Source: Gemmatimonadetes bacterium SCN 70-22
GTDB lineage: Bacteria; Gemmatimonadota; Gemmatimonadetes; Gemmatimonadales; Gemmatimonadaceae
Direction: 5' to 3'
Length of the DNA stretch: 64,000 bases
Assembly (NCBI GenBank): GCA_001724275.1
Contig: MEDZ01000015.1
Span: 62,001 to 126,000, forward strand
Shown here: positions 4,002 to 20,779 of the stretch, piece by piece
Numbering within the stretch: the stretch's first letter is position 1
Layout of the letters: the number at the start of each line of letters is the position of its first letter
The notes under the pieces: model-generated
The model's database searches: none
Told to the model about the DNA's origin: nothing
The model's input: the letters and a program-made list of their open reading frames with translations, nothing else
Made by a program: the position numbers and the translations under genes

Positions 4002-4576
4002 CCCGTCCTCCCGTCTGGCGAAGTACCGTTTGCGTCTTTTGCAAGGTCGCTTGACGCTAATAACATGCGAGTCTACCCCAGAAGCGTCAACCCGATCCCA
4101 CCCGTGTCAGCGAATTCCGGTCAATCGGATCAACACGCCGCTCGTCAGCTCTTCGCCACTGCATCGAGCGTGCTGCCACGAGCGCTTGGGCGAGAGCGAA
4201 GACGCCATTCTCACCGGCGTGGTTCGCACCATGACGGCATTCGCTCGAGAGCCGGTCAGGAACGGAAGAATGGGCGGAATGAGTTACGAACCCGTGAGCC
4301 ACCTCGAACGACGAAGGCACGTTGACCCTAGCCGTTCCGAACTTTCGAGCCTCTCAATTGGCCAGCGCGATTCGGCAGCGATGAGCCGCTTTGCCAATGG
4401 CTTCCATGCCCCGTCGCCCATGCGTATCCTTCGCGGCTACATATGGAGCGGAAATCCGCCCGGACCGGGCAGCGCTCCCCTGCTCGTCGGGTGCTCGAGA
4501 CGGAAGCCGCGGTCCTCGTGTTCTCGTCTTCCCGTGCTCTCGACTTCTCGTCTTCTCGTCTTCTCGTCCTCTCCGC
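4002..4576. other. 575-bp gap, no convincing gene
   Basis: The gap separates the minus-strand protease from the plus-strand DUF2723 gene, so it should hold both promoters, but no strong sigma-70 pair stands out. An open frame of about 186 codons at 4030-4590 has no recognisable motif and runs through the repeat next to the next gene, so it is not called. The last 56 bases are a tandem octamer tract. The left part keeps the lower GC of the neighbouring lipoprotein genes. Confidence 0.6.
4521..4576 (+). repeat. Tandem octamer (TTCTCGTC) tract abutting a start codon
   Basis: Seven successive 8-base units fill exactly 56 bases and end at the base before the ATG at 4577. Four are exact TTCTCGTC; the others are TTCCCGTG, CTCTCGAC and CTCTCCGC. 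The whole leader strand is pyrimidine-rich with no Shine-Dalgarno. The same octamer lies in front of the FAH-family gene at 11141-11192, in the same orientation relative to that gene. Confidence 0.85.
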
Positions 4577-7363: not shown

Positions 7364-8812
7364 GTGACGACGCCTCCACGCCTCCGATTCGCTCCCTCCC
7401 CCACCGGGTACCTTCACGTCGGGGGGGCACGGACCGCCCTCTTCAACTGGCTGTACGCCAGGAAGACGGGAGGGAAGTTCCTCCTCCGAATCGAGGACAC
7501 GGACCGCGCCCGCAGCACCGAGGAGAGCACGCGCGCCATCTTCGACGGCCTCACCTGGCTGGGGCTCGACTGGGACGAGGAGGTCGTCTTCCAGGGCGCC
7601 AACGTGGCGCGGCACCAGCGCGATGCGCACCGCCTCCTGGACTCGGGGGCAGCCTACCGCGACTTCACGACCGCCGAGGCGCTCGACCGGATGCGCGCGG
7701 AGGCCGAGTCGCGTGGCGTGCCCTTCCGCTTCGACCGGCGCCTGGCGGAGCTGCCGCCGGACGAGGTCGCGGCACGGCTGGAACGCGGCGATCCGTACAC
7801 CATCCGCTTTCGCGTCCCCGAGGGCGTGACGGGGTGGGACGACCTCGTGCACGGCCCCATCGAGTTCCCCAACAAGGACCTCGATGACTTCATCATCCTG
7901 CGCTCCGACGGAACGCCGATCTACAACCTCGCCGTCGTCTCCGACGACATCGCGATGGCGATCACCCTCGTCATGCGCGGAGACGATCACATCTCCAACA
8001 CGCCCAAGCAGATCCTCCTGTATCAGGCGTTAGGCGCCTCCCTCCCCACGTTCGCCCACCTGCCCATGATCCTCGGGGGCGACGGGAAGAAGCTCTCCAA
8101 GCGCCACGGCGCCACCGCGGTGGGCGACTACGGGGCGCTCGGCATACTCCCCGACGCGATGTGCAACTTCCTCGCCCTGCTCGGCTGGTCGCCGGGTGGC
8201 GACCGCGAGGTGATGACGCGCGCCGAACTCATCGAGGCCTTCTCCGCCGAGGGGCTCCTCAAGAAGGCGGCGGTCTTCGACACCAGGAAGCTCGAGTGGA
8301 TGAACGGGCAGCACCTGGCCCAGGCGCCCATCGAGGCGCTGGATGCCTACCTGCGCCCCTTCCTCGTGCAGGAGGGGCTCACCACCGGCGAGGAGCTCGA
8401 GGCGCGGCGCGACTGGTGGCGGCGCCTCCTCGAGCTCCTGCGTGTGCGCGCCCGCACGGTCACCGAGCTGGTGGAGCAGTGCCGCCCGTACTTCCTCGAC
8501 GCCGTCGCCTACCAGCCGGAGGCGGTCGCCAAACAGTGGAAGGATCGCCTGGCGACGGCCGAGCTGCTGCAGGCCGTGCATGACCGGCTCGCGGCCGCGC
8601 CGTGGGAGGCGCAGGCGATGGAGGAGTCGCTGCGCGCGTTAGGCGAGGCGCGGGGCGTGGGCGCGGGAAAGATCTTCCAGCCCATGCGCGTCGCCCTCAC
8701 CGGCGTCGCCGCCACCCCGGGGATCTTCGACGTCCTCCTCGCCATCGGGCGCGACCGCTCGCTTGCACGGCTCGACGCCGCCGTGGCGCACCTCACCGCC
8801 CCCGCGGGATGA
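7364..8812 (+). CDS. gltX: Glutamate--tRNA ligase
   Basis: GltX charges tRNA with glutamate in the cytoplasm. The 482-residue product has the class I signature PSPTGYLHVGGART near the start (HIGH motif as HVGG), RIEDTDRARS, a GDDHISNTPKQI motif and the KMSKS equivalent KKLSKRHGA. Length is usual for the family. The start is taken as the GTG at 7364, eight codons before the HIGH region; a TTG further up (7289) would add 25 residues and lies just after the hairpin, so it is less likely. No clear Shine-Dalgarno is seen. Its stop codon overlaps the ATG of the next gene (ATGA), indicating translational coupling. Confidence 0.96.
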   Translation: MTTPPRLRFAPSPTGYLHVGGARTALFNWLYARKTGGKFLLRIEDTDRARSTEESTRAIFDGLTWLGLDWDEEVVFQGANVARHQRDAHRLLDSGAAYRDFTTAEALDRMRAEAESRGVPFRFDRRLAELPPDEVAARLERGDPYTIRFRVPEGVTGWDDLVHGPIEFPNKDLDDFIILRSDGTPIYNLAVVSDDIAMAITLVMRGDDHISNTPKQILLYQALGASLPTFAHLPMILGGDGKKLSKRHGATAVGDYGALGILPDAMCNFLALLGWSPGGDREVMTRAELIEAFSAEGLLKKAAVFDTRKLEWMNGQHLAQAPIEALDAYLRPFLVQEGLTTGEELEARRDWWRRLLELLRVRARTVTELVEQCRPYFLDAVAYQPEAVAKQWKDRLATAELLQAVHDRLAAAPWEAQAMEESLRALGEARGVGAGKIFQPMRVALTGVAATPGIFDVLLAIGRDRSLARLDAAVAHLTAPAG

Positions 8813-9453
8813 ACGATCCCCTGACCCCGCTCGAGCGGCGCGTCTACCACTACCTCCTGGACTTCCTGGCCGAGAACACCTACCAGCCCAGCGTCCGGGA
8901 GATCGGGCGGCGCTTTCGCATCAAGTCGACCAAGACGGTGGCGGAGGTGCTCCAGTCGCTGGCCGACAAGGGGTTCATCGAGCGCGAGGGGGCACGCTCG
9001 CGCGGGGTGCGCATCGTGGGCTGGTCGTCGATGGGGCAGGTGCAACCCGTCCCGCTCTACGCCCGCGTGAACCCGGTGGAACCGTACCTCACGGAGGAGA
9101 ACCGCGAGCGCTGGGTGGCGATGGACCGCTCGTTCGTCCCCACCGACGACGCGTTCTTTCTCCGCCACGGCGGCGAGGCCATGATGGCCCGCGGCGTGCA
9201 CGACGGCGACTGGCTGCTGGTGAGCCCCTCCACCCGCGCCCGCGAGGGCGACCTGGTGGCGGCGCGCGTCGGCGCGCACGTCCTGGTGCGCATCGTGGCG
9301 CGACAGGGGGCCGTGCTGTCGCTCGCCGCCACCAACGGGGAACCGCGCGAGATCTTCCTCGGCCCCAGCGACGACTTCTCCGTCCTGGGCGTCGTCTCCG
9401 CCGTCTTCCGCACCTGGCACGACGAGCCCGAGGTGGAGGGGGCCGACGGGTAG
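8809..9453 (+). CDS. LexA-like repressor lacking self-cleavage residues
   Basis: This 214-residue protein has LexA architecture. Residues 5-60 are a LexA winged helix (LTPLERRVYHYLLDFL, then YQPSVREIGRRFRIKS and SLADKGFIERE). The C-terminal half aligns with the LexA peptidase fold (DDAFFLRHGGEAMMARGVHD, GDWLLV, GDLVAARVG). The three functional sites differ from LexA: the catalytic Ser of the GMSM/GDSM loop is Ala124 (GEAM), the catalytic Lys is Arg161 (HVLVRIVA), and the Ala-Gly scissile pair is Pro-Val (ARVNPVEP). It should bind DNA and dimerise but not cleave itself in response to RecA. It overlaps the gltX stop by four bases. A lineage-specific repressor is likelier than the SOS LexA. Confidence 0.8.
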   Translation: MNDPLTPLERRVYHYLLDFLAENTYQPSVREIGRRFRIKSTKTVAEVLQSLADKGFIEREGARSRGVRIVGWSSMGQVQPVPLYARVNPVEPYLTEENRERWVAMDRSFVPTDDAFFLRHGGEAMMARGVHDGDWLLVSPSTRAREGDLVAARVGAHVLVRIVARQGAVLSLAATNGEPREIFLGPSDDFSVLGVVSAVFRTWHDEPEVEGADG

Positions 9454-11132: not shown

Positions 11133-11140
11133 TTCTCTGA

Positions 11141-11192
11141 GAAGACGAGAAGACGAGAAGACGAGAAGGCGAGAAGGCGAGAAGGCGAGAAG
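11141..11192 (-). repeat. Tandem octamer (TTCTCGTC) tract upstream of the FAH-family gene
   Basis: Plus-strand units GAAGACGA (three copies) then GAAGGCGA (three copies) plus a half unit. On the coding strand this is a pyrimidine-rich TTCTCGTC/TTCTCGCC leader ending 8 bases before the ATG of the FAH gene, the same unit and orientation as in front of the DUF2723 gene. Confidence 0.85.
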
Positions 11193-11222: not shown

Positions 11223-13775
11223 TCACCGGTGTCGCTTGGCTGAACGCGCCCCGCCGACGCTCGTCGCGCGCGCGTGGGCGGAGGGGACGGGGCGGTAGAA
11301 GCGGGCGATCTCGCGGGCTACCTCCGACCACGGGGCGATGACCCGGCGAGCCGGGGGGAGCCCCTCCACGAGCTCGCGGCCGAAGGCCTTGGACGCGGCG
11401 CGCGGGTCCATCAGTACCACGACGCCCTGGTCGCTGGCCGAGCGGATCAGGCGGCCGAACCCCTGCTTGAGGCGCAGTGCCGCATGAGGGATCATGTACT
11501 CGCGAAACGGGTCGCCCCCTCGCGCCTCGATGGCCTCGCAGTGGGCCGCGGTGAGCGGCTCGGTCGGGACCTTGAATGGGAGCTTGCTCAGGACCAGGGC
11601 GCGCAGCGCTTCGCCCGGTACGTCGACCCCTTCCCAGAACGACGCGGTCCCGACAAGGATCGCATCGCCGGCGTCGCGGAACCGGCGGAGGAGCGAATCG
11701 CGCGCATCTTCGCCATGGACCATCAGGGGGAATCGCTGGTCCAGGGCTCGTTCGCGCAGCACGAGCGCGGCCTCGCGCACGTCGCGGTGTGAGGTGAAGA
11801 GAGCGAAGACGCCTCCCCCTGCCGCCCCGGCCGTGACCGCGATCGCCTCGACCACGGCCTCGAAGTGCCCGCGCGGATCCACGTTGGGGGGCGCCGTGTC
11901 GGTGGGGATGGCCAGCATGGCCTGTGTGGCGTAGTCGAACGGGGACGGGAACACCTGCACCTCGGGCTCCACTTCGCTCTCGGTGAGCCCGAGGCGGGTC
12001 CGGATGAAGTCGAACTTCCCGTCGGTCGAGAGCGTGGCGCTGGTGACGATCGCGGTTTCCAGGCGGGCGAAGAGGTCTTCGCGGAGAATCGGGGCGAGGT
12101 CGAGGGGGACGCTGGTGACGGCGAGGTTGCGCTCCTTGCCGCGCACCTCGAGCCAGCGCACCGTCTCTCCCCGTCCCGATGGGGTGAGCCCCTGGCGCAG
12201 CGCCTCGCCGGCGTTCTCCAGGCGTCGCGTCACGCCGCGCAATTCGCCCAGGAGGGGAGCGTGCGCCTCCAGCGCCTGCTCGTCGGTCTCCAGCCGCTCG
12301 CGCACCAGGCGCAGGTTTTCGCCCAGGAGGGCGAGCTCGCGCAGCAGGTCCTCGAGTGCCACGCGGAGCCCTGCGCGCCATACCGGGTGCTCGGCGAACT
12401 GGTCGGTGAGTCGATATACCGGCGTGCGCGCCTCCTGCGTCACCCCGTCGAGCAGGTCGAAGACCGCCCCGCCCTTCTCACGGGCGGCGACGGCCGACGG
12501 AAAGAGGCGCGCGTGCACGAGGTCGAGCGAGGCCACGCTGAGCAGGTCCTTCCGCGCGCCCAGGCGCGCCGCGAGGGTGGGGAGGAGCCCCTTGCCGCGG
12601 CGCTCCAGGCGTCCAAAGAGGCGCTGCAGCCCGCGGCGCGTGGCGGTGGCCCCGAGGTGGCTGGCCGCGGCATCCTCGAGGTGGTGTCCCTCGTCCACGA
12701 CCAGCCGCGAGTACGGGGGGAGGACCGCGGCGTCGTCCCATTTCTGCGAGGCGCGCCGGACGGCGAGATCCGCCAGGAGCAAGTGGTGGTTGACGACGAT
12801 CACGTCGGCCTGCGCCGCCTGCCGGCGGGCGGCGAAGAGGAAGCAGCGGTCGAAGTGCGGGCATTGCAGCCGCAGGCAGAGGTCGGGCTCGGCCGCCACC
12901 TCGTCCCAGACGTCGGGCTTCGGTGGGACGGCCAGGTCGCTCAGGCTCCCGTCCCCCGTCCGCTCGGCCCACTTGGCCAGCGCCTCCAGCTCCGACGCCG
13001 CCCCTGCATCGAAGAGCGTCGCGCCGGCGCCTCGCGCCTGGTCCAGCCGGTGCAGGCAGAGGTAGTTGTGCCACCCCTTGAGGAGGGCGTAGCGCACCGG
13101 CTGGTCGTCGAGGGCCCGGGCGAGGAACGGGAGGTCCTTGCCGACCAGCTGTTCCTGGAGGTTGATCGTGTTGGTGGAGATGACGGTACGCTCGCCGTTC
13201 TGCGCCGCCCAGCGCAGCGCCGGGACCAGGTAGCCTAACGACTTGCCGACCCCCGTCCCCGCCTCGAGCACGCCGATCCCGCCCCCGTTGTAGAGCCGGG
13301 CGATGGTGCGGGCGAAGCCGCGCTGGCTGGCGCGGTCCTCGTAGCGCTGGTGCAGCCGCGCCACCGCGCCACCCGCCCCCAGCACCGCCTCGACCGCCTG
13401 CAGGTCGAGGGGCGAGCGCCGCCGGGCGCGCGGGACCTCGACCACCACGTAGACCTCGCGGGCATCGTTGTCGACGATGGCGAAGCCCACTCCGGCGTCG
13501 TGCATGCGCGCCGCGATGTCGAGGTCAGGGCCGGACGGCGCGAGGTTCCCGGACGGGTGGTTGTGCAGGAGGAGCTCGCCGCGCTGCGCGAATCCGGGGA
13601 GCGCGAGGACGGAGGTGACGTCGCCCCGCGCCACGACCCGCGCCGACGCGATGACGTCGCGCTCGTCCACCGTGCAGACGAAGCACACCTCGCGTCCCCC
13701 CGCCAGCCGGATGGCCGCCCGCACGGCGGCGGCGGCGTTAGGCGAAATCCTCCCTTCGGGTCTCTCCGGCGGCAT
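11223..13775 (-). CDS. DinG-type Fe-S helicase fused to an N-terminal JAMM/RadC domain
   Basis: The 850-residue protein combines two modules. Residues 1-120 are an MPN-type domain with the metal motif H-x-H-x7-S-x2-D (His71, His73, Ser81, Asp84, within HNHPSGNLAPSGPD) and a candidate Glu29. The rest is an XPD/DinG superfamily 2 helicase: Walker A EAGTGVGKS (171-179), STNTINLQEQLV, four candidate Fe-S cysteines (YLCLHR, then LCLRLQCPHFDRC), the DEGH box VVDEGHHLEDAA, SATLS, and FWEGVDVPGEALRALVLSKLPF with QGFGRLIRS near the end. DinG helicases unwind DNA 5' to 3' and resolve damage-associated structures; usual N-terminal fusions are DnaQ-like exonucleases, not this domain. The ATG at 13775 is the first start before the MPN fold. 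Confidence 0.88.
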   Translation of the reverse strand: MPPERPEGRISPNAAAAVRAAIRLAGGREVCFVCTVDERDVIASARVVARGDVTSVLALPGFAQRGELLLHNHPSGNLAPSGPDLDIAARMHDAGVGFAIVDNDAREVYVVVEVPRARRRSPLDLQAVEAVLGAGGAVARLHQRYEDRASQRGFARTIARLYNGGGIGVLEAGTGVGKSLGYLVPALRWAAQNGERTVISTNTINLQEQLVGKDLPFLARALDDQPVRYALLKGWHNYLCLHRLDQARGAGATLFDAGAASELEALAKWAERTGDGSLSDLAVPPKPDVWDEVAAEPDLCLRLQCPHFDRCFLFAARRQAAQADVIVVNHHLLLADLAVRRASQKWDDAAVLPPYSRLVVDEGHHLEDAAASHLGATATRRGLQRLFGRLERRGKGLLPTLAARLGARKDLLSVASLDLVHARLFPSAVAAREKGGAVFDLLDGVTQEARTPVYRLTDQFAEHPVWRAGLRVALEDLLRELALLGENLRLVRERLETDEQALEAHAPLLGELRGVTRRLENAGEALRQGLTPSGRGETVRWLEVRGKERNLAVTSVPLDLAPILREDLFARLETAIVTSATLSTDGKFDFIRTRLGLTESEVEPEVQVFPSPFDYATQAMLAIPTDTAPPNVDPRGHFEAVVEAIAVTAGAAGGGVFALFTSHRDVREAALVLRERALDQRFPLMVHGEDARDSLLRRFRDAGDAILVGTASFWEGVDVPGEALRALVLSKLPFKVPTEPLTAAHCEAIEARGGDPFREYMIPHAALRLKQGFGRLIRSASDQGVVVLMDPRAASKAFGRELVEGLPPARRVIAPWSEVAREIARFYRPVPSAHARATSVGGARSAKRHR

Positions 13776-13876: not shown

Positions 13877-15175
13877 CTACGTCTTCAGCGGCTTCTTCTT
13901 CGCCGCCGGAAACAGCACGTTGTTGAGGATCAGCCGGTAGCCCGGCGACGTCGGGTGCAGCGAGAGGTCCGTGGGGGCGGCCCCGATGTTGTGTTGCGGA
14001 TCTTCCGGGTCGTGGCCGCCGAGATAGGTCCACGACCCCTTGCCGTAATCGCCGTGGATGTACTTGGCCCACGGCGCCCCCTCTTCCTGCGCCAGGACGG
14101 TCACGCCCTGCTTGATGGTCGCCTTGTTGAAGGACGTCGTGACGCCATAGAAGTCCTGGATGACGGTACGATGGTCCTGCACCAGCATCGACGAGACCGG
14201 GTCGAACTTGGCCGAGAACTGGAAGAGCGTGAACTGCCCCAGCGGCTGCCGTCGCCCGGGGACGTTGACCTGGTGCCCGTCGATGTCGCTCATCGAGTTG
14301 ACGAAGGGCGAGGGTTCGAGGTGCACGTCCTTGAAGGCGAAGGAGCGATCCCAGTCCATCTTGCTGTCGGCCGCCTCGTCCACCGGTGTCCCGTCGGCGA
14401 AGCTCCCGGCGATGTCGGTCTGGTAGGCGGCGATGGCCAGCGACAGCGTCTCGGTCGCCCCGCACATGGCGAACAGGAAGCCGCCACGCTCGACGAACTG
14501 CCGCATCTTCTCCGCCACGGCCTTCTTCATGGCGGGGATCGTGGCGAAGCCGAGCTTTCGGGCGCTGGCCATGGCCCGCTCGCGCTGCTCGATGAACCAC
14601 GGCGTGTCGCGGAAGCCGAGGTAGAGCTTGTTCTGCTGCCCGGTGAAGTCCTCGTGGTGCAGGTGCAACCAGTCGTATTTCGAGAGGTCGCCCGCCATGA
14701 CCTCCTCGTCATACACGGAGGCGAACTCGATCCCCGCATACTGCAGGGCGAGCGTCACGGCGTCGTCCCACGGGGGCGACTTGGCCGGGCGGTAGATGGC
14801 CACCTTGGGCGCCCGCTCGAGCGAGATGGCGTCCATGTTGCCTGAGGCGATCTCGGAGCGGATCGCGGCGAGGCGCCCGTTGTCGACCGGCTCGAAGGTC
14901 ACGCCGTCGAGGGTGGCGCGCTTGCGCAGCTCACTGAGGTCGGGGAGGAGGAACGACCCGCCGCGGTAGTTGATGAACCATTCGGCCTTGTTGCCGTCGC
15001 GGAGCGCGTTGAAGGTGAGCCCGTACGCCTTGAGGTGATTCGCCTGGTTGTCGTCCATCGGGACGAGCAGGTGCTGCGCACGCGCCCCGAGGGGGACGCA
15101 CGTCACGACCGCCGCGGCAAGGACGGTGAGGAGCCGCGCCGCGCGACGACGCGCCGGTGGCTGAGCCCGGGTCAC
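13877..15175 (-). CDS. Secreted protein of the family labelled asparagine synthetase B
   Basis: The 432-residue product has an export signal (RLLTVLAAAVVTCVPLGARAQ) and a mature part starting HLLVPMDDNQANHLKAYGL, then EWFINYRGGSF. The family is annotated asparagine synthetase B in Bacteroidota and relatives, but no ATP-pyrophosphatase or N-terminal nucleophile domain is visible here, so that name is doubtful. Later segments (KVAIYRPAKSPPWDDAVTLA, YDWLHLHHEDFTG, FAMCGATETLSLAIAA) resemble a class I glutamine-amidotransferase-like fold with a nucleophile-elbow Cys. HGDYGKGSWTYLGGHDPEDP near the end may be a substrate or metal site. The start is a GTG before the signal peptide. Function is unknown; location outside the cytoplasm is likely. 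Confidence 0.8.
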   Translation of the reverse strand: MTRAQPPARRRAARLLTVLAAAVVTCVPLGARAQHLLVPMDDNQANHLKAYGLTFNALRDGNKAEWFINYRGGSFLLPDLSELRKRATLDGVTFEPVDNGRLAAIRSEIASGNMDAISLERAPKVAIYRPAKSPPWDDAVTLALQYAGIEFASVYDEEVMAGDLSKYDWLHLHHEDFTGQQNKLYLGFRDTPWFIEQRERAMASARKLGFATIPAMKKAVAEKMRQFVERGGFLFAMCGATETLSLAIAAYQTDIAGSFADGTPVDEAADSKMDWDRSFAFKDVHLEPSPFVNSMSDIDGHQVNVPGRRQPLGQFTLFQFSAKFDPVSSMLVQDHRTVIQDFYGVTTSFNKATIKQGVTVLAQEEGAPWAKYIHGDYGKGSWTYLGGHDPEDPQHNIGAAPTDLSLHPTSPGYRLILNNVLFPAAKKKPLKT

Positions 15176-15429: not shown

Positions 15430-17226
15430 TTACCCCGTCCCCCCCGGTGGAACCGTCCCGCGCGCCAGCTCCAGCTCCCGCCGCGCCTGCGGTACCAGCG
15501 CGCTCTGCGGGTACGTCAGGATCAGGTGCTCGAGGCGGGCAATCGCCCCGGCCGCATCCCCGCGGTGCCGCAGCACGCGCGCCCAGTCCAGCTCGGCCTC
15601 CGCCGCCTCCGGCGCATCCGCGAATCCCTCCACCAGCCGCGCCCACAGCAGGGTGGCGTGCGGCGTGTCGCCAGCCGCCTGCGACAGCCGAGCCGCCGTG
15701 AGCAGGAGGAACGGCGCGGCGTCCGGGAGGACCGACGCCGCCTCCTCGAAGCGGCGCGCGGCGCCGGCCGTGTCGCCCTTGGCCAGCGCGAGGAACGCGG
15801 CCCCGATCGATGGGGACTCCTCCGCGCGCGTGCGCGACAGGAGTGCCATGGCGGTCACCACGTCGCGCGACGTCTCGTCGGTGCGCCGCAGCCCCCGCCG
15901 CGCCGCCTTGAGGTCCCCCGCGTACAGGGCCAGCCACCCCTCGATCCGTTCGTCCTCTTCCGTCCCCCCGCCGCCAGCCGCAAGCGCCTGCCGCGCGCGC
16001 GCCAGGTCGCCGGCGCGGATCCACGCCCACGCCAGCGCCCGTTGCGCCTGGCGGACACCCTCCGGCCCCAGCAACGCCCCGCGCCGCGTCACCACCGCCT
16101 CCACCTCGGGCGCGCGCCCCAGCGCCGCCAGCGCCCGCACCTGCAGCAGCGCCACGGCGCCACCCGCCGCCGAGTCGGCCGACGACGCCAGCGGCTCGAC
16201 CAACGCCAGCGCCGACGCCGGCTCCCCGCCGTTCAGCGCCGCCGTCGCCGCCTTCACCACCAGCGCGTGGTCCCCGGGACGGCGTGCCGCCGCCGCCGCG
16301 TACGCGTCACGCGCCGTCAGCCACGCCTCTCCCTGCTCCGCCTCGGCGGCAAACTGGATCCACGCCTGCACCGCCGAGTCGCTCGGCGCCACCGGTGACA
16401 GCGCCGCCCACCCCTCGCGCGCCGAGCGCCACCGCGTCTCCAGCGAGGCCAGGATGCGCCGGGCCCCCAGCGCCACCGGCGGCGCGGCGAAGATGGCCCG
16501 CACCCCGTCCCGCACCGAATCCGGGGCGGCCGCCAGCGAGAACGCCGCCGCCTGCTCCATGTACGGCATCACCTCGCTCGCCTCGCGCCAGCTCCGCGCC
16601 GACGAGAGCCAAAGGCCAAGTGCCGCTTGCATCTGAGCGAACTCCGCCGCGAGGTCCCGCGACCCGCCCAGCACCTGCACCGCCCCGCGCAACACCGTGT
16701 CGGCCGCCGCCGCGCGCCCTGTCTCGAGCAGGAGTCGCGCGTACTCGCGAAACGGGGCCGGCTCGCGCGGCGAAAAGGCCATCCACTGCGCGAACGCCGC
16801 CTCCGCCTCCCGATCGCGTCGCAGCCCCACCAGCGTCCGCAGCTGCACCGTCCGAAGGAGGGGATCGCGCGGGCGTCGCGCGAGGAGCGAGTCGACCAGC
16901 GGAAGCAGCGCCTCGCTCCCACCGACCTGCGAATGGCACCGCTCCAGCCCCAACACCGCCCCCACCGGGTCCTCGGCATCGAGCGACTGCCGGTACAGCG
17001 GGATGGCGTCTCGGCACTTCCCCGCGCTCTCCAGATCCAGCGCCTGCACCAACGGCGACGGCGGGGCGGGCTTCCCCTCCTGCGCCGAGACGACGAAAGC
17101 GCGAGAGACGATGAGGCAGGCGGCCAGGAGGATCGTGCGGGCGCGACCGCCGGCGCTCCATCCCTCCCGCTCCGGCACCTCCCGTCTCCCGCCTCTCGTC
17201 TCCCGTCCCTCCCTACGGCTTCGCAT
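15430..17226 (-). CDS. Secreted tetratricopeptide repeat protein
   Basis: The protein (598 residues from this ATG) has an export signal about residues 29-50 (ARTILLAACLIVSRAFVVSAQ) followed by helical TPR-like repeats throughout, for example AGKCRDAIPLYRQSLDAEDP, REAEAAFAQWMAFSPREPAP and GDAAGAIARLEHLILTYPQS at the end. It should act as a periplasmic scaffold. The ATG overlaps the 3' end of the DUF4175 gene by 14 bases; a GTG at 17178 is an alternative that removes 16 very basic residues encoded by GGGAGAC-type repeat DNA and leaves a cleaner signal peptide. It is the last gene of the rsmI-DUF4159-DUF4175-TPR cluster; TPR proteins also accompany DUF4175 genes in MoxR/DUF58-type loci. Confidence 0.85.
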   Translation of the reverse strand: MRSRREGRETRGGRREVPEREGWSAGGRARTILLAACLIVSRAFVVSAQEGKPAPPSPLVQALDLESAGKCRDAIPLYRQSLDAEDPVGAVLGLERCHSQVGGSEALLPLVDSLLARRPRDPLLRTVQLRTLVGLRRDREAEAAFAQWMAFSPREPAPFREYARLLLETGRAAAADTVLRGAVQVLGGSRDLAAEFAQMQAALGLWLSSARSWREASEVMPYMEQAAAFSLAAAPDSVRDGVRAIFAAPPVALGARRILASLETRWRSAREGWAALSPVAPSDSAVQAWIQFAAEAEQGEAWLTARDAYAAAAARRPGDHALVVKAATAALNGGEPASALALVEPLASSADSAAGGAVALLQVRALAALGRAPEVEAVVTRRGALLGPEGVRQAQRALAWAWIRAGDLARARQALAAGGGGTEEDERIEGWLALYAGDLKAARRGLRRTDETSRDVVTAMALLSRTRAEESPSIGAAFLALAKGDTAGAARRFEEAASVLPDAAPFLLLTAARLSQAAGDTPHATLLWARLVEGFADAPEAAEAELDWARVLRHRGDAAGAIARLEHLILTYPQSALVPQARRELELARGTVPPGGTG

Positions 17227-20200
17227 TGATTCGCTTGAAGTACTCGAGCACGAGACGCCGCTCCTCGGGTGTCAGCCCGCGCAGCTCGTTCCACGTGGGG
17301 GGCGTGAACCGCGTGGCCCCCTTCCCGCTCGCGGTGGCTCCCTGCGGCGTGAACGTCTCGGTCCCGGTCCACGCCTTCGCCTCGCGCTTCCCCGTGTCCT
17401 CGCGCTGGTCCTCCTCGAGCAGCCGTCCCGCATCGAGCATCTTCCGGAACAGGCGCTGCTGGCGCTCGAGCACCGCGGCATCGAGGCTGGCGGACTCCAG
17501 CTGCTGCGCGATCTGCCGCGCCTCACGTGCCATCTCGTCGGACCGCCCGCTCTCGTCGCGATCGCCCTGCTCCTCGAGCCGCGCCGCGACCTCGCGCTGC
17601 TGGCGCGCCAGCGCGCGCGCGCTGTTCTGCGACTGCGCATCCATCTTCTGCCCGGGCCGGGGAATCAGCTCCTGCGCCGCCGAGTTCAGCGCCTGCTGCT
17701 GCTTCGCCATCTGCTGCAACTGCTCGAGCATCTCGGCGAAGCCCGTGGCCGACTCGCTGTTCTGCGTCCGCTCGCGGTCGCGCACCAGCGAGGCACCCGC
17801 CTGGTTGAGCGACTCCCCGGCCTCGCGCATCGCGCTCGCCATCTGCTGCCCCGTCTGCGAGCGCTGCGTCTGCGCCGTGGCATCCTCCACCTTGCGGCGC
17901 GCGTCGTTCATCATCCGCAGCGAGCGCTGGGAGAGCAGGTTCGACTTGGTGGCCGCCTGCTGCAGCCGCTGCATCGTCTTCTCCACGCCCTGCTGCAGCG
18001 CCCCCTGCTGCGAACGCAGCTCCGCCGGCGACGTCCCGCTCCGGGCCTGCTGCTCGAGGTTGTCCTGCTCCCGCGCCAGCTGCAACATCTCCTGGATCGC
18101 CCGGTCCATTTCGCCGGTGAGCTCCTTCTTCCACTCGCTCACCTGCTGGTCGCGCGCCTTCCCCAGCTCGTCGGCCGCCTGCTCCATGGCCTGCGCCGCC
18201 TGCTCGGCCGCGGACTCGCCCGACTTCTCGCCCTTCTGCTGCCCCTGCTGTCCCTGCTGTCCAGGGCCGGCGCGGTTCTGCCCTTGCTGGCCCCCCTCCT
18301 GGGCGCCCGCCCCCTTCTGGCCGGCGCTCTGCTCCCCCTGCTGCTTCTCCCCACCCTTCTCCCCACCCTTCTCCCCTCGCTCGGCGCCCCCCTTCTGCTC
18401 CTCCCCCTGCTGACGGGCCCCCCCCTCACGCTGCTCGCCGGACTTCCCCTGCTGGCCCGCCTGCTTCTCGCCCGCCTGCTTCTCGCCCGCCTGCTTCTCG
18501 CCGGCCTGCTTCTCGCCGGCCTTCTCCCCGCCCTGCTTGTCACCCTGCCGACGCATCGCCTGCTGCAGCTTCTCCAGCGACTCGTCGATCTTGTCGTTGG
18601 CCTCCTGCATGCGATCGGCGCCCGCCTCCGCCTTCTCCCGCTTGAGCCGCTCCTGCAGCTGCTTCACGTCCTCCTGCAGGTTCTTCGCCCGGTCGGTCAG
18701 CTCCTTCGTCATCCGCTCGGCGGCCTGCTGCTCCGCCTGACGATCGGCCGTGCGCATGGAGTCGACGAGGTCGCGCTGCCGCTTCGCGAGGTCCTTCGCC
18801 TCGTCCTTCAGCGTCTGCATCTGTCCCTCGAGCGCCGCCCGCTTGAGCATCTCGACGCTCTTGTCGAGCTGCTCGCGGAGCTTGCGCTGCTGCTCCGCCA
18901 GGTCCTGCAGCGCGCGACGCGACTCCTCCGGCGACATGTCCTGCGACGCCTGCTCCAGCTTGCGGAGCTTCTCCTGCAGCTCGGGGGTCAGCGCGTCGCG
19001 CAGCAGCTTCTGCGCCTCGCGCAGTCGCTCCTGCAGCGCACTGTCCAGCGCCCCGGTCTGCCGGAGCTGCTGCTCGAGCTTTCGCGCCGCATCCTGCATC
19101 TGCTGCATCCGATCGGCGAGCTGCCGCTGCTCCTTCGCGAACTGCTTGGCCTGCTGCGACGCCTCGTACGACATCGCGTCCTTGCCGTTCTGCTGCTGGG
19201 CGCGCTGGCGCGCGCGCGCGGCATCGGCGGTGCGCTGGTTCAGCTGCTTCTGCGCGTTGGCCGTCGCCTCCGCACGCGCCACCGCCGAGTCGGCGGCCGA
19301 CCGCACGGCATCGCGCTGTTCGCTGAGGCTCGGCAGTCGCACCACGACCTCGGGACTCTCTCCCGCCTGGCGCCACGGCGAGGCGTCGGTCGCCAGCGCC
19401 ACGAGGCGCATGGCATCGCCGGGGGTGAGCGTGGACATGGCGAGCGCCAGTTGCCCCTGGAACTGCTCGCCCTGGGCGCCCGGCAGGGGGCGCACGACCG
19501 ACGAGCGCACTTCGCCGCGCCCATTGGTGATGGTGATGCGCAGCGCCGCCGACGCCAGGCCATGGTCATCGGTGGCCAGGACCGACACCCCGATCGTGTC
19601 GCGGGCCAGCACGAGTGTGTCGCGCCCCGGCGCCAGGATCTCCACGCGCGGCGCCGAATCCGCCTGTACCTCCAGCTGCAACGCCGGCGGCAGGTCGGCG
19701 ATGGCGCCGTTGCGCCCGCTCGCCGTCCAGTGGAACGTCCCTCCCGTCCCCACCTGGAATCGCCCGCGGAAGCTGCGGGCGGACACCTGCAGCGGGATGC
19801 TCGCCCCGTCGCTCGCCAGGCGCACGCTCTCCAGCTCGGTGGAAGAATGTCCCTCGATCTCGAGTACCGTCCCGCGCGGAAGGCGGACCGGCTCGCCCAG
19901 GGGCACCGTCTCATCGCGCCGCCCGAGGTAGGCCGGGAAGGCCGCCCGCACCGTGACGTCGCCGATGAACGGCCGGTCGACGACGCGCACCGCCATCGTG
20001 TCGCTGGTGCTCCGCCCGTCGGTGGCGTAGATCGCCAGGTCGGCATCGAGCGGGCCGAGCGTCACGACCGCCGAGTCGCCGCGCAGCGGGAGCGCGCTCG
20101 TCCGCCACGAGCTCCCCGTGACCCGCTGGGCAACGGTGACCATCCGGCGCCCCGGGGCATGCACCGTCAGCTGCACCTTCTCCCCGCGCAGCACCGCGCG

Positions 20201-20779
20201 CGGGGCCTCGCTCAGCGTCACCCCGCCGAGCAGCGTCCCCTTCCAGGCCAGCACCGGGTGCACCAGGGCGCGCCATCCGTCGGGCGCGGCCGAGGCCGCC
20301 GTCACCAACCCCAGGATGCCGGCAATCGCGGCGCCGCCGCCGATGGCCGCCCGGCGCGCGACACTCCGGCGCAGCCCCGGCGCCAGCGACGGGTCGGCCA
20401 ACCCGGCCAGCCGCCCCGCCACCTGCTCGGCGTTCAGGCGCCCGAGCGCCCCCGCGTCGGCCACCTCGAGCGCCCCGCGCACCGACCCCGCACGCAGCCG
20501 CCGCTCCTCCTCCACCGCGCGCGCGATCCGGACCACCGAGGTCTCCTCGGACAGCCGGCGCCGCAGCCAGCGCCCCCCCGCCACCGCCGCCGCGATCGCC
20601 AGGGCCCACGCGACGAACGGGGTCAGCCGCGGGAGCACCAGCCACCGGCTCCCGCCTAACGCCACCGTCGTCACCAGCAGGACGAGGACGACGCCGGTCA
20701 GGACCAGCGCCGCCCCCCCAGCCGTCAGCTGCCGCGCGACGCCGCGGCGCTCGCGCTCCACCAGGTCGAATAACGTCAT
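17213..20779 (-). CDS. DUF4175 family membrane protein with long coiled coil
   Basis: This 1188-residue protein has two N-terminal membrane helices (about residues 20-42 and 52-70) and a third near 145-165, then a periplasmic beta-rich region (about 180-440), then some 700 residues of charged, Gln-rich helix typical of coiled coils (RQRAQQQNGKDAMSYEASQQ and onwards). Within the helix a low-complexity stretch has four GEKQA units and QG/GEK repeats (about 745-860). The C-terminus is compact (FTPPTWNELRGLTPEERRLV). DUF4175 proteins occur with MoxR ATPase, DUF58 and DUF4159 genes; the role is unknown but probably in envelope assembly or stress. Its ATG overlaps the DUF4159 stop by four bases. 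Confidence 0.88.
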   Translation of the reverse strand: MTLFDLVERERRGVARQLTAGGAALVLTGVVLVLLVTTVALGGSRWLVLPRLTPFVAWALAIAAAVAGGRWLRRRLSEETSVVRIARAVEEERRLRAGSVRGALEVADAGALGRLNAEQVAGRLAGLADPSLAPGLRRSVARRAAIGGGAAIAGILGLVTAASAAPDGWRALVHPVLAWKGTLLGGVTLSEAPRAVLRGEKVQLTVHAPGRRMVTVAQRVTGSSWRTSALPLRGDSAVVTLGPLDADLAIYATDGRSTSDTMAVRVVDRPFIGDVTVRAAFPAYLGRRDETVPLGEPVRLPRGTVLEIEGHSSTELESVRLASDGASIPLQVSARSFRGRFQVGTGGTFHWTASGRNGAIADLPPALQLEVQADSAPRVEILAPGRDTLVLARDTIGVSVLATDDHGLASAALRITITNGRGEVRSSVVRPLPGAQGEQFQGQLALAMSTLTPGDAMRLVALATDASPWRQAGESPEVVVRLPSLSEQRDAVRSAADSAVARAEATANAQKQLNQRTADAARARQRAQQQNGKDAMSYEASQQAKQFAKEQRQLADRMQQMQDAARKLEQQLRQTGALDSALQERLREAQKLLRDALTPELQEKLRKLEQASQDMSPEESRRALQDLAEQQRKLREQLDKSVEMLKRAALEGQMQTLKDEAKDLAKRQRDLVDSMRTADRQAEQQAAERMTKELTDRAKNLQEDVKQLQERLKREKAEAGADRMQEANDKIDESLEKLQQAMRRQGDKQGGEKAGEKQAGEKQAGEKQAGEKQAGQQGKSGEQREGGARQQGEEQKGGAERGEKGGEKGGEKQQGEQSAGQKGAGAQEGGQQGQNRAGPGQQGQQGQQKGEKSGESAAEQAAQAMEQAADELGKARDQQVSEWKKELTGEMDRAIQEMLQLAREQDNLEQQARSGTSPAELRSQQGALQQGVEKTMQRLQQAATKSNLLSQRSLRMMNDARRKVEDATAQTQRSQTGQQMASAMREAGESLNQAGASLVRDRERTQNSESATGFAEMLEQLQQMAKQQQALNSAAQELIPRPGQKMDAQSQNSARALARQQREVAARLEEQGDRDESGRSDEMAREARQIAQQLESASLDAAVLERQQRLFRKMLDAGRLLEEDQREDTGKREAKAWTGTETFTPQGATASGKGATRFTPPTWNELRGLTPEERRLVLEYFKRINAKP

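Follow-up and report, generated by a model that had tools for sequence, protein, structure and literature searches.

Helicases of the DinG, YoaA and XPD type carry a 4Fe-4S cluster and move along single-stranded DNA in an ATP-driven manner. RadC proteins occur across bacteria and are, to our knowledge, without an agreed function. The joining of the two in one protein has already been described: the Aravind group reported a RadC-DinG/RAD3 fusion together with a nuclease hypothesis in 2017, pointing to earlier work (PMC5512222), and a context-based proposal that RadC is a nuclease has been made in PMC5512222 and PMC3482391. Cheng 2025 (PMC11981726) recognized ten DinG subgroups, of which DnaQ-DinG is just one and others carry N-terminal exo- or endonuclease domains, and defined a RadC-like DinG with the same architecture and the same four residues as our protein, along with an AlphaFold3 model. 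According to the same paper, RadC-like DinG has not been the subject of any research. A phrase search of the literature found no other paper using this name, and we found no experiment on such a protein in the literature.

The gene encoding our target protein lies within a stretch of 64,000 nucleotides from the genome of Gemmatimonadetes bacterium SCN 70-22, referred to here as the window. The protein belongs to the published, uncharacterised RadC-like DinG group, as it contains a RadC-like domain and a DinG-like helicase in one chain and the E/H/H/D residues of the putative metal centre. Comparison with the model protein of that group, from Desulfuromonas soudanensis, revealed no structural difference; in both, the chain opens with a RadC-like domain bearing one E, two H and one D and continues into a YoaA-like helicase with an Fe-S domain, and the hosts are without HolC. 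We found no HolC homologue in any of 21 genomes, the window genome included, with control searches that were positive. A YoaA with its HolC partner was rejected as an identification because HolC is absent from the window genome. E. coli YoaA and DinG share the entire helicase part with our protein. They differ from it by lacking a JAB domain at the N-terminus, and the HolC partner of YoaA is missing here. DnaQ-DinG (ExoDinG) and EndoDinG likewise place a metal-dependent enzyme N-terminal to a DinG helicase, with a fold and a metal site that are unrelated to JAB. The main text of PMC11981726 does not mention Gemmatimonadota, which its Table S1 may already list. What our analysis adds is the phyletic breadth of the group, an apparent single origin with secondary losses, and a family-wide conservation of the active site in which the site is either intact or gone. 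Taking anatomy, family assignment and an active hydrolase as accessory domain together, we consider it probable that the window protein is a chromosomal RadC-like DinG, that is, an XPD/DinG/YoaA-family helicase with an N-terminal JAMM zinc-hydrolase domain.

Anatomy of the gene and fold of the N-terminal domain

The gene translates as a single frame from ATG to stop with no internal stops, and its parts are given in Table 1.

Table 1. Features of the JAB-helicase fusion gene, in window coordinates
Feature	Position	Strand	Evidence
JAB-helicase fusion, complete gene, 850 aa	11223..13775	-	ATG at 13775, stop 11223-11225; full-length in-frame homologues
RadC-like JAB/MPN+ domain, residues 9-116, E29/H71/H73/S81/D84	13428..13751	-	Pfam RadC, model, pentad 88/88
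Linker, residues 117-145 (29 residues), sequence poorly kept, length near-fixed	13341..13427	-	dN/dS, spacing
Superfamily 2 helicase of XPD/DinG/YoaA type (residues 146-827), comprising Fe-S, arch and both motor regions	11295..13340	-	profiles, 6fwr match, full-length model, alignment
Fe-S cysteine stretch C240, C300, C305, C311	12843..13058	-	translation and 88-protein alignment

A preliminary description of this DNA had claimed an H-x-H-x7-S-x2-D metal motif of RadC/JAMM type fused to a complete XPD-like helicase of DinG type with Fe-S cysteines and a DEGH box. The motif is present as H71-N-H73-x7-S81-x2-D84 and, together with E29, which had gone unnamed, it completes the JAMM pentad. Translation, Pfam and alignment confirm that the helicase is complete, with Walker A at residues 171-179, DEGH at 361-364 and motif VI (QGFGRLIR) at 771-778, and with the four cysteines of the CCCC motif, from which an Fe-S cluster is predicted. 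The fusion of the two domains is borne out by the profiles, the predicted fold and the comparative evidence below. The DinG-type label stands at the level of the XPD/DinG family and needs a nuance, in that the YoaA model outscores the DinG models: among the NCBIfam models the helicase part is matched best by YoaA with 547.5 bits, below the equivalog cut-off of 680, and by the DinG models with 399-439 bits, all under their equivalog cut-offs. Among solved helicase structures, E. coli DinG (6fwr, E 2.5e-45) is nearest in sequence. In Pfam, Helicase_C_2 matches residues 651-808 with 139 bits, DEAD and DEAD_2 fall slightly under their own cut-offs, and the RadC-like JAB model matches residues 19-96 with 27.9 bits (cut-off 22.1).

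The predicted structures of the JAB domain and of the full-length protein were built on shallow alignments; the JAB model (residues 1-143, built from nine relatives) has a mean pLDDT of 88 and the full-length model a pLDDT of 82. A comparison of the N-terminal region with RadC and JAMM peptidases, suggested earlier as a check, supports an MPN fold, with the model matching 2qlc, PfJAMM1 and Rpn11. Foldseek placed RadC 2qlc first (E 3.3e-5), followed by PfJAMM1 (1.6e-4) and, lower, AfJAMM (1.2e-3), and VIA-align gave Z scores of 8-9 to Rpn11 and 7.7 to RadC. A VIA Z score below 8 is weak taken alone; the sequence motif, Foldseek and the profile all agree with the modelled JAB fold. As predicted, then, the N-terminal domain combines the fold and the E...HxH x7 S x2 D pentad that define the JAMM/MPN+ superfamily. 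It shares with RadC (UPF0758; 2qlc) the JAB fold, the HNHPSG..PS..D metal motif and a match above the cut-off of the Pfam RadC model. It differs from RadC in that the fusion protein scores far under the cut-offs of the NCBIfam RadC models (23.0 and 18.1 bits against 180 and 133.85) and in that, judged by eye, HPREVF and DH, two motifs present in the separate full-length RadC that the window genome also encodes, have not been retained.

Conservation, spread and history of the fusion

Full-length homologues were drawn from a genome scan and from 60 relatives, and an alignment was made of 88 fused sequences belonging to the Gemmatimonadota and the Hydrogenedentota. E29, H71, H73, S81 and D84 are invariant across these two phyla (88 of 88), and the occurrence of the pentad is therefore not a matter of chance. 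The Walker lysine (K178) and the DE of motif II are also invariant, the helicase motifs as a whole are nearly so, and the distance between D84 and K178 is 94 residues in 80 of the 88 proteins. Within the Fe-S domain C300, C305 and C311 are invariant, and in 17 of the 88 proteins a Ser stands in place of C240. These SCCC proteins are the 17 fused sequences that were sampled from families f4-f6 (L134-L150) of the class, and every other fused protein of the alignment has CCCC.

The values of dN/dS, computed for the window protein against four relatives, two of them in its own genus, are 0.11-0.26 for the JAB domain, 0.09-0.37 for the helicase and 0.18-0.89 for the linker, so that purifying selection is similar on the two domains and relaxed on the linker. 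The identities of the two domains co-vary (r = 0.81 over 528 pairs), and none of 2000 permutations gave an equally high value. This pattern of selection and co-variation is the one expected of a two-domain protein that is inherited jointly. The preliminary description had left room for the fusion being an annotation artefact with a separate start for the helicase; the JAB frame upstream of it would then be accidental or belong to a gene of its own. The helicase does stand alone in two related lineages, but homologues fused in frame are found in five phyla, the spacing between D84 and K178 is near-constant, and the dN/dS of the JAB domain is far below 1; we have rejected this explanation on these grounds and find it scarcely credible.

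The phylogenetic spread of the fusion, which had also been put forward for checking, is wide. The JAB-domain profile matched 190 of 249 Gemmatimonadota genomes at E < 1e-20, with the weaker matches in this phylum at the level of stand-alone RadC. Strong matches were found in 52 of 60 Hydrogenedentota and, sporadically, in Myxococcota (about 22 of 113), Planctomycetota (15 of 119) and Acidobacteriota (8 of 119), nearly all of them in long open frames; the counts of fused genomes rest on profile E-values, with the open frame inspected for part of the matches. Phyla are named after the record titles of the loci that served as centres. A check of twelve matches from the last three phyla showed the HNHP..S..D motif followed in frame by the helicase in every case.

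In two lineages of Gemmatimonadaceae the JAB domain is cleanly gone while linker and helicase are kept, and in the genomes of these lineages that were checked we did not find JAB as a separate gene, the JAB profile giving either a RadC-level match or none. A maximum-likelihood tree was built from helicase columns only (476 columns from its first two thirds), with outgroup sequences that had been taken by their similarity to the query. The fused proteins are all found on the same side of a single branch with support of 94/92, and the fused or not-fused label requires three changes on the tree. The simplest reading of three changes on a one-sided tree, for which the root was not inferred, is one fusion followed by two later losses of JAB within the window's own family. 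An origin of the fusion in mobile elements was considered and rejected on the results for viral and plasmid collections. The viral collection gave weak RadC-type matches only, and those inspected had no helicase in their vicinity; in the plasmid collection the best-scoring matches span the helicase only. None of the inspected matches from either collection is a fused form, so that the gene looks chromosomal and not mobile. We conclude that the fusion is genuine and ancient and that it is widely distributed in several bacterial phyla.

Candidate activities of the JAB domain

Judging from its family, the helicase part would bind single-stranded DNA, translocate along it at the expense of ATP as DinG and YoaA do, and open damaged or stalled DNA, while the JAB domain may bind zinc and hydrolyse a bond in something that the motor exposes or meets. 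The JAB domain is not required for the motor because helicases of two lineages exist without it. These two lineages of Gemmatimonadaceae, which have dropped JAB yet retained the helicase, fit a JAB domain that serves the helicase as a non-catalytic docking or DNA-structure-sensing module, and many MPN domains are indeed non-catalytic scaffolds; non-catalytic MPN- domains, however, lose the JAMM residues, whereas here all five are invariant (88 of 88), and we regard such a module as improbable. The domain is kept with its whole active site or dropped altogether, a pattern that argues for a catalytic accessory, with predicted zinc binding and hydrolase activity, rather than for a pure scaffold.

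Our leading guess, made by analogy and held at somewhat less than even chances, is that this accessory would act on the unwound nucleic acid by end trimming or nicking. We favour it because related DinGs bear DnaQ or endonuclease domains at the same N-terminal place, and the slight lean towards nucleic acid also owes to the context-based argument published for RadC (PMC5512222, PMC3482391). More tentative still is the more specific claim that the RadC-like JAB of the family would hydrolyse nucleic acid while coupled to the helicase. If true, it would provide the first demonstrated JAMM-fold nuclease, and the RadC family would gain its long-missing activity. We know of no JAMM enzyme that cuts nucleic acid, the characterised ones cleaving peptide or isopeptide bonds. 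A DALI search with the RadC-like domain in PMC11981726 returned metalloproteases and no nucleases, which speaks against a nuclease, and the same is true of the absence of a clear repair phenotype in RadC mutants, as Attaiech 2008 is cited in PMC5512222 and PMC11981726.

Proteins on DNA are our close second guess for the substrate, a doubtful one in our estimate. The JAB domain would in that case be a peptidase or isopeptidase that the helicase brings to DNA, where it trims or removes bound proteins, either cross-linked or conjugated to a small modifier. Peptide and isopeptide bonds are what all characterised JAMM enzymes cleave (PMC11981726, in line with established knowledge), the oxyanion serine S81 is retained in 88 of 88 proteins, and Rpn11 and archaeal JAMM peptidases are among the best structural neighbours of the model. 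Against this, RadC-type JABs reportedly have no groove for holding the ubiquitin tail (PMC5512222), no gene for a partner from a modifier system adjoins the fusion gene, and neither Pup ligase nor Dop was found in the 41 genomes searched (the window genome and 40 relatives). This last result excludes Pup-type conjugation alone as a target, and we consider the peptidase explanation on the whole rather unlikely. Nothing in the gene neighbourhood of the fusion in the window names the substrate. With a RadC-like domain that has an intact metal site and is tied to a helicase whose behaviour is known, and with natural relatives that have lost JAB alone, the family is a good testing ground for the role of this fold, and it could also reveal whether the activity of JAMM enzymes extends beyond ubiquitin-like systems.

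Surroundings of the fusion gene in the window

The gene upstream of the fusion (window 13877-15163, minus strand, as is the fusion) begins with a signal-peptide-like sequence and matches no Pfam family. Several relatives have its C-terminal sequence, LILNNVLFPAAKKK, in another frame directly upstream of their fusion gene, and the gene order therefore seems conserved. An 8-base unit, GAGAAGAC, forms tandem arrays on opposite strands at window 11139-11192 (6.8 copies), in the gap immediately downstream of the fusion gene, and at 4515-4573 (7.4 copies); the repeat gave nine 14-base matches against 0.01 expected, and a protein-level trace of it (DEKTRRREDERTRR) lies upstream of the fusion gene in one relative (L004). 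A LexA-like protein with LexA DNA-binding and S24 peptidase domains is encoded at window 8797-9453 on the plus strand (L279). Its catalytic Ser and Lys appear to be replaced (GGEAMM for G-x-S-M and VLVRI for VTVKR), so that self-cleavage is probably impossible; another LexA, in which G-N-S-M and the lysine are intact, is encoded on a different contig (L278). Window 17213-20779 (minus strand) encodes a DUF4175-like protein of 1188 aa with long repeats rich in Gln, Lys and Gly (GEKQA...).
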